Source: Singulisphaera sp. GP187 (GTDB lineage: Bacteria > Chloroflexota > Chloroflexia > Chloroflexales > Roseiflexaceae). From it: 34,040 bases of DNA. The notes below the pieces were generated by a model that had not been told where the DNA came from, ran no database searches, and saw only the letters and a list, made by a program, of their open reading frames with translations. Location: assembly GCA_943328915.2 (NCBI GenBank), contig CALQBW020000010.1, positions 1-34,040 of the forward strand, written 5' to 3'. Every line of letters starts with the position of its first letter. Within the stretch, counting starts at the first letter, position 1. Shown in pieces: positions 3,959-7,659 of the stretch. A program made the translations under genes and the position numbers.

Positions 3959-4774
3959 TTACGCAAATTGGACAATCCCTGAATGCACTACTTCAACGCC
4001 GTTGGGGGTGGCAACGATGATACTCCCATCGTCGTTGAGGTGGGTAACGATACCACTGAGTTGCGAATTGTGACGGGTAATGGTGATGGTGTTACCGACA
4101 ATCTGCACGAGTTGACGCCAGCGTGATTGGTAGGCGGTGGGGTTATGTTTGAGTTGTTGGTAGACCAGATCAAATGCGTTGAGTTGGGTGACGAGGATAT
4201 CTGCTCTGGTGATCGATTGGGCGGTCCAATGGCAGATGGCACTACTTTGCCGGGCCAAATCGACATGGTCACTATATTGTTTTGGATGGTCAAGCACATT
4301 GACGCCCCAGCCAATGCAGATTGAATCAACGCGTTGGGCGACTATCCGTGCTTCGCACAACACTCCGGCAAGTTTACGGCGTTGGGTGCCGGCCATCAGG
4401 GTGATATCATTGGGCCATTTGATGTGGACGGGGATGCTGGTGTATTGGGCGACGGTTTCTGCCAATACTGCGACAAATGCATTGATGATATAGGCAGTGT
4501 GGGCAGGCTCCAGCCAATGCGGGCGCAAGAGGAGCGAACAAAGGATGGCTTGACCGGGCATATCATTCCATTGGCGACCGTGTTGGCCACGGCCATGGGT
4601 TTGGTGTTCGGCGAGCACTACGAGACCCTCGGCCCGACCGGAAGCGGCCGCAGCGCGGATTACGTCGTTGGTTGAGGTTGTTTGATGGAGGCGCACCAAT
4701 TCCTGTCCTATCACTGTTGTGGTCAGACGTGGTCGGATGAGGGCAAGTTCAAGGTCAGAAGGGAAGATTGTCAT
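3959..4774 (-). CDS. birA: Biotin--[acetyl-CoA-carboxylase] ligase, monofunctional
   Basis: This 271-residue enzyme activates biotin with ATP and attaches it to the carrier lysine of biotin carboxylases. Family motifs are clear: TTSTND (32-37), the biotinyl-AMP loop GRGQHGR (61-67, usually GRGRRGR), KWPND (119-123) and KLAGVLCE (134-141). A small C-terminal beta domain follows (about 225-271). There is no N-terminal helix-turn-helix domain, so unlike E. coli BirA it should not act as a repressor. It is the last gene of the greA-lysS operon. Its ATG lies inside the end of the upstream doc-like gene (20-base overlap), and no proper ribosome site is visible (only AGAGG about 15 bases upstream), so translation probably depends on coupling to that gene. 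Confidence 0.9.
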   Translation of the reverse strand: MTIFPSDLELALIRPRLTTTVIGQELVRLHQTTSTNDVIRAAAASGRAEGLVVLAEHQTHGRGQHGRQWNDMPGQAILCSLLLRPHWLEPAHTAYIINAFVAVLAETVAQYTSIPVHIKWPNDITLMAGTQRRKLAGVLCEARIVAQRVDSICIGWGVNVLDHPKQYSDHVDLARQSSAICHWTAQSITRADILVTQLNAFDLVYQQLKHNPTAYQSRWRQLVQIVGNTITITRHNSQLSGIVTHLNDDGSIIVATPNGVEVVHSGIVQFA

Positions 4775-5147
4775 TTGGGGTAAGGGTTGCCTCTAACCAT
4801 TCATGAAAGGTGCTTCCGTCTGGGGCAGAATAGAGGGGCATCAACGCGTTGACGATGTCACTATGAGGAATAGACAGTTGGTACCCATAATTGTCGCACC
4901 AAAAGAGTAACACGAGGAGTGCGGTAGTTTCGTTGTGACTTACAAAGGGGTGTTGGCGCACGAGATTGTAGGTGAATGCGGCGATTTTGGCAATAGGAGT
5001 GGGGTAACGAGGGATGCCAAATAAGATTTGGTCGGGCGAAGCGATGACGTTGTCAAGCGTGTCACTTGAGGAAATCCCAAAACATCCTCCGTAACGTTCG
5101 ATGACGATAGTATGCAAGTCGAGGAGTTGGGATTTGCTGAGTCGCAT
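4755..5147 (-). CDS. doc: Doc-like (Fic-fold, death-on-curing family) protein with degenerate catalytic motif
   Basis: This 130-residue protein follows the Doc family pattern along its length: LSKSQLLDLHTIVIERYGG (3-21), a middle TLDNVIASPDQILFG segment, YPTPIAKIAAFTYNLVRQHPF, then a hydrophobic helix. Doc toxins phosphorylate elongation factor Tu and need the motif HxFx(D/E)(A/G)NKR. Here the region reads HPFVSHNETTA (residues 66-76): the histidine, phenylalanine and asparagine remain, but the acidic residue is Ser, the small residue is His, and the Lys-Arg pair is Glu-Thr. I checked these codons directly in the DNA. The protein may be inactive as a kinase, or may use altered chemistry. It starts 4 bases after the AbrB-like gene, the usual antitoxin-toxin order, and overlaps birA by 20 bases. 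Fold assignment is confident; activity is unknown. Confidence 0.8.
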   Translation of the reverse strand: MRLSKSQLLDLHTIVIERYGGCFGISSSDTLDNVIASPDQILFGIPRYPTPIAKIAAFTYNLVRQHPFVSHNETTALLVLLFWCDNYGYQLSIPHSDIVNALMPLYSAPDGSTFHEWLEATLTPNDNLPF

Positions 5148-5151
5148 TGGT

Positions 5152-5370
5152 CTACTCGAGCCCAGCCAAGCGGCGGAATGCTTTGTCGTAATTGTCTATG
5201 ACGGGCTCAGCCCACTCACGCAAAGATTGCGAGCGTGGTTTGCGCAAGAGCACTTCACGGTCAGTAAATACTAATTCGACCGTATCGAGGTTGCCGAGGT
5301 TTGCGGCTTTTAGCCAACCTTGGACAACGGGGGGTAAATTTTCGACTTCTATGACGAATTGTGTAGGCAT
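5152..5370 (-). CDS. Small AbrB/MazE-like protein, probable antitoxin partner of the Doc-like gene
   Basis: This 72-residue protein starts MPTQFVIEVENLPPVVQGWL. Its first half resembles an AbrB/MazE swapped-hairpin DNA-binding fold: an xxLPPxxxxWLxAANLG segment followed by TVELVFTDREVLLRKP. The second half is a charged helix (SLREWAEPVIDNYDKAFRRLAGLE), the kind of tail antitoxins use to grip a toxin. It lies 10 bases after lysS and 4 bases before the doc-like gene. The ATG at 5368-5370 has GAAGGG 13 bases upstream, overlapping the lysS stop; the longer open frame to 5733 runs backwards through lysS in another frame and is not used. The function rests mainly on gene order and weak fold resemblance. 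Confidence 0.65.
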   Translation of the reverse strand: MPTQFVIEVENLPPVVQGWLKAANLGNLDTVELVFTDREVLLRKPRSQSLREWAEPVIDNYDKAFRRLAGLE

Positions 5371-5380
5371 GCGGGTTCGA

Positions 5381-6853
5381 CTACCCTTCGCGGGGACGTA
5401 AATGCGGAAACACGACGACATCGCGGATTGTTGCTTGATTGGCAAAAACCATTGCCATGCGATCGATACCCATTCCGAGGCCGCCTGTGGGGGGCATGCC
5501 ATACATGAGGGCATTGATATAGTCGTTATCGAGCTGATGGGCTTCGTCGTCGCCTTTGGCTTGGTCTTGGAGTTGACCGAGGAACCGTTGCTCTTGGTCA
5601 AAGGGGTCATTGAGCTCGCTATAGCCATTGCCGATTTCCATCCCGGCCACAATTGCTTCAAAGCGTTCGGTGATGGCAGGATCATGGGCGTGGCGTTTGG
5701 CGAGGGGTGAAAGTTCGACAGGATGATCAACAATAAAAGTCGGTTGGATCAAGCTAGGTTGAATGATTTCGCTAAATAATTCATCGACTTGTTTTGCCCA
5801 ACTTGGCTTGGTTTCAATTGGCAATTTGCGTTCACGGATAGCGGCAATAAGTGCATCGTGGGTTTTGGTGGTCAAAATATCAATGCCTGTGCGTTCGAGG
5901 ATCGACCCGGGTATGGAGACGCGTTGCCATTTTGGGCCAAAGTCGATGGTGTGTTCTTGGTATTGGATGACGGTGCCACCGGTGAGGTGAATAGCAGTTT
6001 GGCGACATACGTCTTCGACCAAGTCCATCATATCGTTGTAATCCCCAAAGGCTTGGTAGCATTCCATCATGGTGAATTCGGGGTTGTGGGTGCGGTCGAC
6101 CCCTTCGTTGCGGAAGACTTTGCTGATTTCGTAGACGCGCTCAAAGCCACCGACGATCATGCGTTTGAGGTAGAGCTCGACGGCAATCCGCAAATAGAGA
6201 TCTTGTTTGAGTTGATTATGAAAGGTGGTAAACGGACGGGCTGTGGCACCGCCATAAATTGGTTGGAGCACGGGGGTTTCGACCTCAAGGAAGCCCCGTT
6301 CGTCGAGCACTTTGCGCATCATGCGCATGACTTGGGCGCGGGTGCGGAAGTTGGCGCGTACATCGTGATTGACAATCATGTCGAGGTAGCGTTCGCGCAA
6401 ACGGGCTTCGGTGTCGGTGAGCCCATGCCATTTATCGGGTGGTGGGTTTATGGCTTTGCTGAGGAGGACGATGTGGTTAACAAACACCGATGCTTCGCCG
6501 GCATTGGTACGCCGTAAAGAGCCACTTGCTTGGATAATATCAAAGGTGTCGATATCATTGGCGAAGCGGTCAAACCATTCGTCGCCGACTTCGGCGCGGC
6601 TCAACCAGAGCTGGATGCGGCCATGTTCATCTTCGATATGGGCAAATGCTAATTTGCCCATGATGCGTCGTGCCCCAACAATTCGCCCAACTACGGTGAC
6701 AAGGGCGTTTTGGGTTATCATTTCGTCAAAATTGGCAATTATCGCAGGAATAGCATGTGTGCGTTGCGAACGTGCAGGGTACCCTTCGATACCGGCAGCA
6801 CGGAGACGAGTGAGTTTATCGGCACGTTGTTGTTGCAGTTCGTTGAGTTCCAT
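5381..6853 (-). CDS. lysS: Lysyl-tRNA synthetase, class II
   Basis: This 490-residue enzyme charges tRNA-Lys in the cytoplasm. An N-terminal OB-fold anticodon-binding domain (about 50-135) precedes the class II catalytic core. Visible are motif 1 around [17 protein letters not shown] (187-203), motif 2 [15 protein letters not shown] (246-260) and motif 3 GLGMGIDRM (458-466). The length is normal. It follows greA after 16 bases on the same strand, a pairing seen in several bacterial phyla, and is followed closely by the AbrB-like/doc-like pair. The annotated ATG at 6851-6853 starts the typical N-terminal helix ([14 protein letters not shown]). Confidence 0.96.
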
Positions 6854-6869
6854 GGTGCACCTTATCTGA

Positions 6870-7343
6870 TTATTTAATTGCTTTAATCACGCACTTCATC
6901 GGGCCACTCGGTGCATGAATGACCACTTTGTCTTTTACTTTGCGACCAATCAAGGCGACGCCGAGTGGTGATTCATTTGAAATCATCCCTTCGGCAGGAC
7001 TTGATTCAGCACTACCGACAATCCGGTATTCTTCGTCGTCGTCTTCGCCATCGTATCGGATGGTGACTGTCGAACCAATCCGGATTTCTTTGATGTTCCC
7101 TGGTTCGTCTTCGATGATTTGATGACGTGCCAACACATCACGAATTTCTTTGATACGGCCTTCGTTGAATCCAGATTCTTTTTTGGCGTCTTCGTATTCA
7201 CCACTCTCAGAAATATCGCCGAGTTCCTTGGCTTGGTTAATCCGTAAGGCGATCTCACGTCGCAACACGGTTTCCTTTTCGCGTAATTCAGCTTCGAGTT
7301 TGGCTTTGCCTTCGGGTGTCAAATAAAAAATGCGATCGCTCAT
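6870..7343 (-). CDS. greA: Transcription elongation factor GreA
   Basis: This 157-residue protein enters the secondary channel of RNA polymerase and triggers cleavage of backtracked RNA. The N-terminal coiled coil (about 8-75) carries the acidic tip [15 protein letters not shown], with the catalytic acidic pair of the DxSENxEY type (here DISESGEY). The C-terminal FKBP-like domain ends [18 protein letters not shown]. The frame opens at 7379, but the ATG at 7341-7343 has GAGGGG 7 bases upstream and gives the usual family length. It is the first gene of the operon running to birA, transcribed from 7451-7479 through a leader with a strong hairpin. Confidence 0.95.
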
Positions 7344-7537: not shown

Positions 7538-7611
7538 GCGGGAGTGGCGTAGTGGTAACGTAGGAGCCTTCCAAGTTCATGTCGAGAGTTCGATTCTCTC
7601 CTCCCGTACCA
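7538..7611 (+). tRNA. tRNA-Gly (anticodon TCC)
   Basis: The 74-base cloverleaf includes an encoded CCA (7609-7611). The acceptor stem is 7538-7544 with 7601-7607, the D arm about 7547-7561, and the anticodon arm 7563-7579 with loop CTTCCAA, giving anticodon TCC at 7570-7572. The T arm is GAGAG-TTCGATT-CTCTC (7584-7600). The discriminator is A7608. Three pairs are unusual: G1-U72 at the end of the acceptor stem, a G27-A43 mismatch at the base of the anticodon stem, and G30-U40. It has its own promoter and terminator, so it is a single-gene unit reading GGA codons. Confidence 0.9.
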
Positions 7612-7617
7612 AACCAA

Positions 7618-7659
7618 CAGCACCCAGTATTGATTCGTCAATACTGGGTGCTGTTTTTT
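7618..7659 (+). terminator. Rho-independent terminator of tRNA-Gly
   Basis: A perfect 16-bp stem (7618-7633 with 7638-7653) is closed by a stable TTCG tetraloop and followed by six T residues (7654-7659). It begins 6 bases after the encoded CCA. Confidence 0.93.

Follow-up and report, generated by a model that had tools for sequence, protein, structure and literature searches.

Lys73 of Doc, from the P1 Phd-Doc pair, inverts the bound ATP and thereby makes the protein a kinase (PMC7180214). The catalytic motif of such kinases is HxFx(D/E)(A/G)NKRTA, with K73 and the His. The closest precedent for the locus described here is the enterobacterial FicT/FicA pair (EcFicT subfamily), which likewise combines a degenerate-motif Fic-fold "toxin" with a small cognate antitoxin on the chromosome, is inherited vertically with conserved synteny, and was proposed to have departed from classical toxin-antitoxin function (PMC5033356). 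FicT/FicA belongs to the FicT (AMP-transferase) branch, is found in Enterobacteriaceae and has a VbhA-type antitoxin, whereas the protein examined here, which we call pseudo-Doc, belongs to the Doc branch, is found in Chloroflexales, has a weakly AbrB/MazE-like partner (ANT), lies in the lysS operon and shows a wider loss of residues (Lys, Arg, Asp and mostly His). In the mazE-doc toxin-antitoxin systems such as TasAB, a small MazE/AbrB-like protein also precedes a Doc-like protein; TasAB is functional in E. coli and has relatives on the plasmids and chromosomes of many groups (PMC1626090). The present locus differs from TasAB in its degenerate motif, in a partner without the AbrB N-terminus and in its vertical inheritance. 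Finally, the Fic domain of Bartonella BepC was reported to act by binding and not by catalysis, as we propose for pseudo-Doc, although BepC is a secreted effector and its motif is near-canonical (PMC7842960). A search of the open-access literature, which is weak evidence of novelty, found nothing on Doc in Chloroflexus or on this Chloroflexales locus. Our best explanation, to which we assign a probability of about 0.58, is that pseudo-Doc is a domesticated, non-catalytic Doc from an ancestral toxin-antitoxin pair and that its complex with ANT acts by binding.

Pseudo-Doc in the window

In the window, by which we mean the whole 34,040-nucleotide stretch of DNA analysed, the pseudo-Doc ORF runs on the minus strand from an ATG at 5147 to a stop that ends at 4755, encoding 130 aa with zero internal stops (Table 1). 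The preliminary description, based on the sequence alone, had assigned this gene to the Doc family. Pfam Fic (PF02661) matched at 51 bits (cut-off 24; E value 2.7e-13), placing the protein in the Fic/Doc fold family. For TIGR01550 (DOC_P1), the top NCBIfam relative of all 36 aligned pseudo-Doc members, the window protein scored 26.9 bits, below the cut-off of 38.65 that delimits the Doc toxin subfamily. Structure prediction yielded an AlphaFold2 model with a pLDDT of 87.3 (input: the 36-sequence alignment) and a predicted Doc fold; the top Foldseek matches were P1 Doc bound to Phd, with TM scores of 0.77 (query) and 0.81 (target). Along with this fold, the locus shares with P1 Phd-Doc the residue numbering of the motif, which coincides by chance, and a partner gene just upstream. 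It differs from Phd-Doc in the loss of D70, K73 and R74, in a partner without demonstrated Phd likeness and in its location in a chromosomal housekeeping operon.

Table 1. Coordinates of the pseudo-Doc locus and its neighbours in the window.
Feature	Position	Strand	Remarks
pseudo-Doc, 130-aa Fic/Doc-fold protein	4755..5147	minus	ORF, Pfam and structure search; degenerate motif HPFVSHNETTA
degenerate Fic/Doc motif, residues 66-76	4920..4952	minus	K73 to E, R74 to T, D70 to S, A/G71 to H
ANT, 72-aa partner	5152..5370	minus	stop codon 4 bases before the pseudo-Doc ATG; weakly but significantly AbrB/MazE-antitoxin-like
lysS, lysyl-tRNA synthetase	5381..6853	minus	directly upstream, same operon
greA, transcription elongation factor	6870..7343	minus	upstream of lysS
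birA-like biotin-protein ligase	3959..4774	minus	5' end shares 20 bases with the 3' end of pseudo-Doc

The motif reads H66 P67 F68 V69 S70 H71 N72 E73 T74 T75 A76 (codons CAC CCC TTT GTA AGT CAC AAC GAA ACT ACC GCA), exactly the residues that the preliminary description had given in place of the canonical motif. That description had left open a sequencing error and had proposed to look for the motif in related genomes. A sequencing error was ruled out because congeneric species with 73-76% protein identity have QPFISHNETTA and thus share SHNETTA with the window protein, and complete single-contig genomes of other families contain related degenerate motifs.

The operon and the partner protein

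Because a scan of contigs gave a single close locus only, with a Roseiflexaceae metagenome-assembled genome as the closest named relative, the ortholog group was built from a search across genomes. A search of 60 relatives produced matches in 51 genomes, and pseudo-Doc orthologs, with degeneration common to them, were found in 64 of 82 Chloroflexales genomes. ANT is present in exactly the same 64 genomes, neither gene ever occurring alone, and in a draw of 400 genomes across the phylum it was confined to Chloroflexales. The operon order is greA-lysS-ANT-pseudo-Doc, with ANT encoding 71-72 aa. For 38 of the 40 loci fetched with flanks, spanning four families, the synteny lysS-ANT-pseudo-Doc was intact, and greA usually precedes it. 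One of the two exceptions is at a contig edge, and the other is a genome (G029) in which ANT and pseudo-Doc are on different contigs, pseudo-Doc being far from lysS, with both genes retained.

Neither gene was found in the remaining 18 of 82 genomes, several of which are uninformative since lysS is missing from the assembly or at a contig edge. In five others (G028, G031, G037, G059 and G405) lysS is present, both genes are gone and an SDR-like operon gene lies directly after lysS. Within one family, several genomes have lost the pair outright. In G037, a short stretch just behind lysS (L144:1420-1464) matches the C-terminus of pseudo-Doc (E 0.002) and may be a deletion scar, though this is suggestive only. 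In other families, pseudo-Doc is often followed in the operon by two further genes, one SDR/epimerase-like and the other coding for a PlsC-like acyltransferase whose long N-terminus is probably disordered (L029:6276-8625 and equivalents; both names were given by eye). In the window's own genus, the only one in which it was seen, the birA-like neighbour occupies this position. A strong terminator-like hairpin with a T-run (18 pairs) was also seen at 7616-7655 of the window, just after a tRNA gene at 7538-7608.

Pfam gave no match for the window's ANT, while the MazE_antitoxin family weakly matched 5 of 33 ANT sequences. In hhalign comparisons, the ANT profile aligned along almost the whole of its length with the ORF in the antitoxin position of tandem Doc cassettes (82%, pairwise E 1.1e-5). 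With AbrB-type ORFs that precede canonical Docs, its alignment begins at the LP helix (68.5%, pairwise E 4.6e-5). By these hhalign matches, the window's ANT having no Pfam match, the locus has the small antitoxin-related gene directly upstream that is typical of type II toxin-antitoxin systems. ANT and the aligned antitoxins have in common a C-terminal segment, Y..AF/LR.L, which may be where such antitoxins would hold Doc. The ANT model had a pLDDT of 77.8, and PDB searches for a fold match with the ANT profile and model gave chance matches only. A mirror-tree test was uninformative on coupling, as the correlation of ANT and Doc distances (0.75) was no better than that with lysS or greA.

These properties bear on the possibility that ANT and pseudo-Doc together bind DNA and autoregulate the greA-lysS operon, in which case pseudo-Doc, as the co-repressor, would tune ANT in the manner of Doc with Phd and only the toxic activity would be lost. 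The alignment of ANT with a DNA-binding class of Doc antitoxins, the fixed operon position and the existence of mazE-doc hybrids (PMC1626090) all favor such a role. However, the AbrB alignment starts only at the LP of the helix. AbrB/MazE antitoxins have a swapped-hairpin domain whose N-terminal strands make the DNA contacts, and nothing in ANT aligns with these strands; neither the modest confidence of the ANT model nor the structure searches help the case. We therefore regard autoregulation as unlikely.

Motif, descent and selection across the order

The motif was tallied for 63 of the 64 orthologs, and Arg74 for 62 rows. At position 73, the residues are Glu (48), Asp (9), Ser (3), Thr (2) and Gln (1), with Lys in 0/63; Arg74 is lost in all 62 orthologs tabulated, and the Asp at position 70 is kept in one and lost in 62 of 63. 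Position 66 is Arg in 31, His in 25 and Gln in 7, such that the catalytic His is gone in 38/63. The comparison Docs (n=60) retain the four residues nearly throughout (His 59, Asp 59, Lys 60, Arg 59). The roles that we assign to individual lost residues draw partly on general knowledge of the family. They draw also on published work (PMC7180214, PMC5651007, PMC5033356). With Lys, Arg, Asp and mostly His lost, phosphorylation of EF-Tu by the known route appears very unlikely.

The preliminary description had spoken of His and Asn as kept. This holds for both residues in the window protein, and N72 is invariant in all orthologs tallied, but the His is not a trait of the family. In the tree, the window's His66 (CAC) is nested among seven Gln sequences (CAA/CAG) of its own genus, so by parsimony it probably arose again from Gln and is not evidence for retained catalysis. 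Three residues outside the motif, D10, S27 and D29, are invariant only within the pseudo-Doc clade and show a constraint absent from canonical Docs.

Could pseudo-Doc have a different enzymatic chemistry, with some other nucleotide or group as the donor? P67, F68, N72 and T75 are invariant in 63/63 orthologs, the use of new donors has evolved among Fic-fold proteins and toxicity can persist in a degenerate Fic (PMC5651007). Had the active site been re-purposed, however, one would expect it to have become fixed, whereas positions 66, 69, 70, 71, 73 and 74 vary within the clade, with 66, 69 and 71 variable even inside one genus (HPFVSHNE, QPFQSNNE and QPFVSQNE), and more than half of the orthologs are without the general base. 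A new enzymatic activity thus seems quite unlikely.

The Doc loci read are of two kinds: the protein beside lysS, always degenerate, and a protein with the full motif HxFxDGNKRxA, which is located away from the lysS locus and often encoded by two tandem doc genes. Tandem doc-doc pairs behind one small antitoxin-like ORF are frequent among the canonical Chloroflexales Docs (L066-L074, L076, L078-L081 and L140; e.g. L074:2860-3776 and L070:2537-3417), and both copies have HxFxDGNKRxA wherever the motif is readable. Among 20 further loci from the 400-genome phylum draw, 19 of them outside the order, Lys73 is kept wherever the motif is readable and three loci depart at other motif positions. The window's genome has a second Fic/Doc sequence (contig C212, L171:1420-1581) with a near-canonical HPFFDGIKRLA and an in-frame TGA, which by its sequence is a decayed gene, in contrast to the intact pseudo-Doc.

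The presence of canonical Doc cassettes with an ANT-related antitoxin in many of these genomes, and the known neutralization of one Fic protein by another (PMC5651007), would fit a pseudo-Doc that serves as a decoy or antidote against active Docs by titrating the antitoxin or forming mixed dimers. We consider this improbable, given that pseudo-Doc is the sole Fic-domain protein found at E 1e-6 in two single-contig genomes (G047 and G054) and two near-complete ones (G049 and G053), and that the only other Doc found in the window's genome is broken by a stop.

The 63 pseudo-Docs form one clade even with the motif columns removed (SH-aLRT 99, from a quick method and few columns). Their pairwise distances track those of lysS and greA (r about 0.75), as vertical descent would predict. 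A search of plasmids and phages for pseudo-Doc relatives returned distant matches only (about 40% identity or less) and none that was close. A recent horizontal arrival was rejected on the basis of synteny and monophyly. The locus is vertical, syntenic and restricted to the order, unlike the scattered, mobile distribution that is typical of, though not strictly defining for, type II toxin-antitoxin systems.

Selection was examined by genus with the Nei-Gojobori method. The ten dN/dS medians for pseudo-Doc range from 0.05 to 0.29, and six of them do not exceed about 0.1; for the window's genus, the values are 0.18 for pseudo-Doc, 0.04 for ANT, 0.04 for lysS and 0.14 for birA. Pseudo-Doc is under purifying selection in every genus tested, and the reading frames are intact in all orthologs read. 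We looked for a canonical motif in close relatives combined with relaxed selection and found the reverse, all 63 orthologs read being degenerate, which bears out the earlier proposal that selection maintains an intact gene. A pseudogene was rejected by dN/dS: despite the loss of catalytic residues and the absence of the pair from several genomes of one family, it is highly improbable that pseudo-Doc is a decaying relic, since its frames are preserved, residues are invariant across the order and the truly decaying Doc of the same genome shows an in-frame stop.

Proposed history and significance

In our preferred reading, in which pseudo-Doc is a non-catalytic Doc that has been domesticated, the ancestral pair of antitoxin and Doc would have settled behind lysS in the Chloroflexales ancestor or early in the history of the order. 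Doc would then have been stripped of the Asp that binds Mg/ATP, of the Lys-Arg pair and, in the majority of lineages, of the catalytic His, and the two genes would have been inherited vertically ever since. The C-terminal helix of ANT may still hold pseudo-Doc in the way that Phd holds Doc, and the putative complex would act by protein-protein binding instead of EF-Tu phosphorylation. The likeliest site of action would be translation or its stress response, because of the operon (greA, lysS) and the ancestral target. More tentatively, at somewhat less than even odds, this order-wide, vertically inherited pair might be a non-enzymatic housekeeping complex tied to lysS/greA, perhaps binding EF-Tu or another translation factor. 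Several points weigh against the preferred reading. The mirror-tree test gave no sign of a special ANT-Doc coupling, Fic proteins with a degenerate motif can still be toxic, as is C. fetus Fic2, which needs its His (PMC5651007), and the invariant loop residues N72 and T75 could be the sign of an unusual ligand.

The value of chromosomal toxin-antitoxin pairs to their hosts is the subject of a long-running argument. The Chloroflexales locus offers a natural example: evolution has apparently removed the toxic chemistry but kept the pair across a bacterial order, linked in most genomes to core translation and transcription genes. Several complete genomes in which pseudo-Doc is the sole Fic-domain protein provide a clean setting for studying function apart from toxicity. 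Collectively, these observations point to a toxin pair that has been turned into a non-toxic component of the cell.
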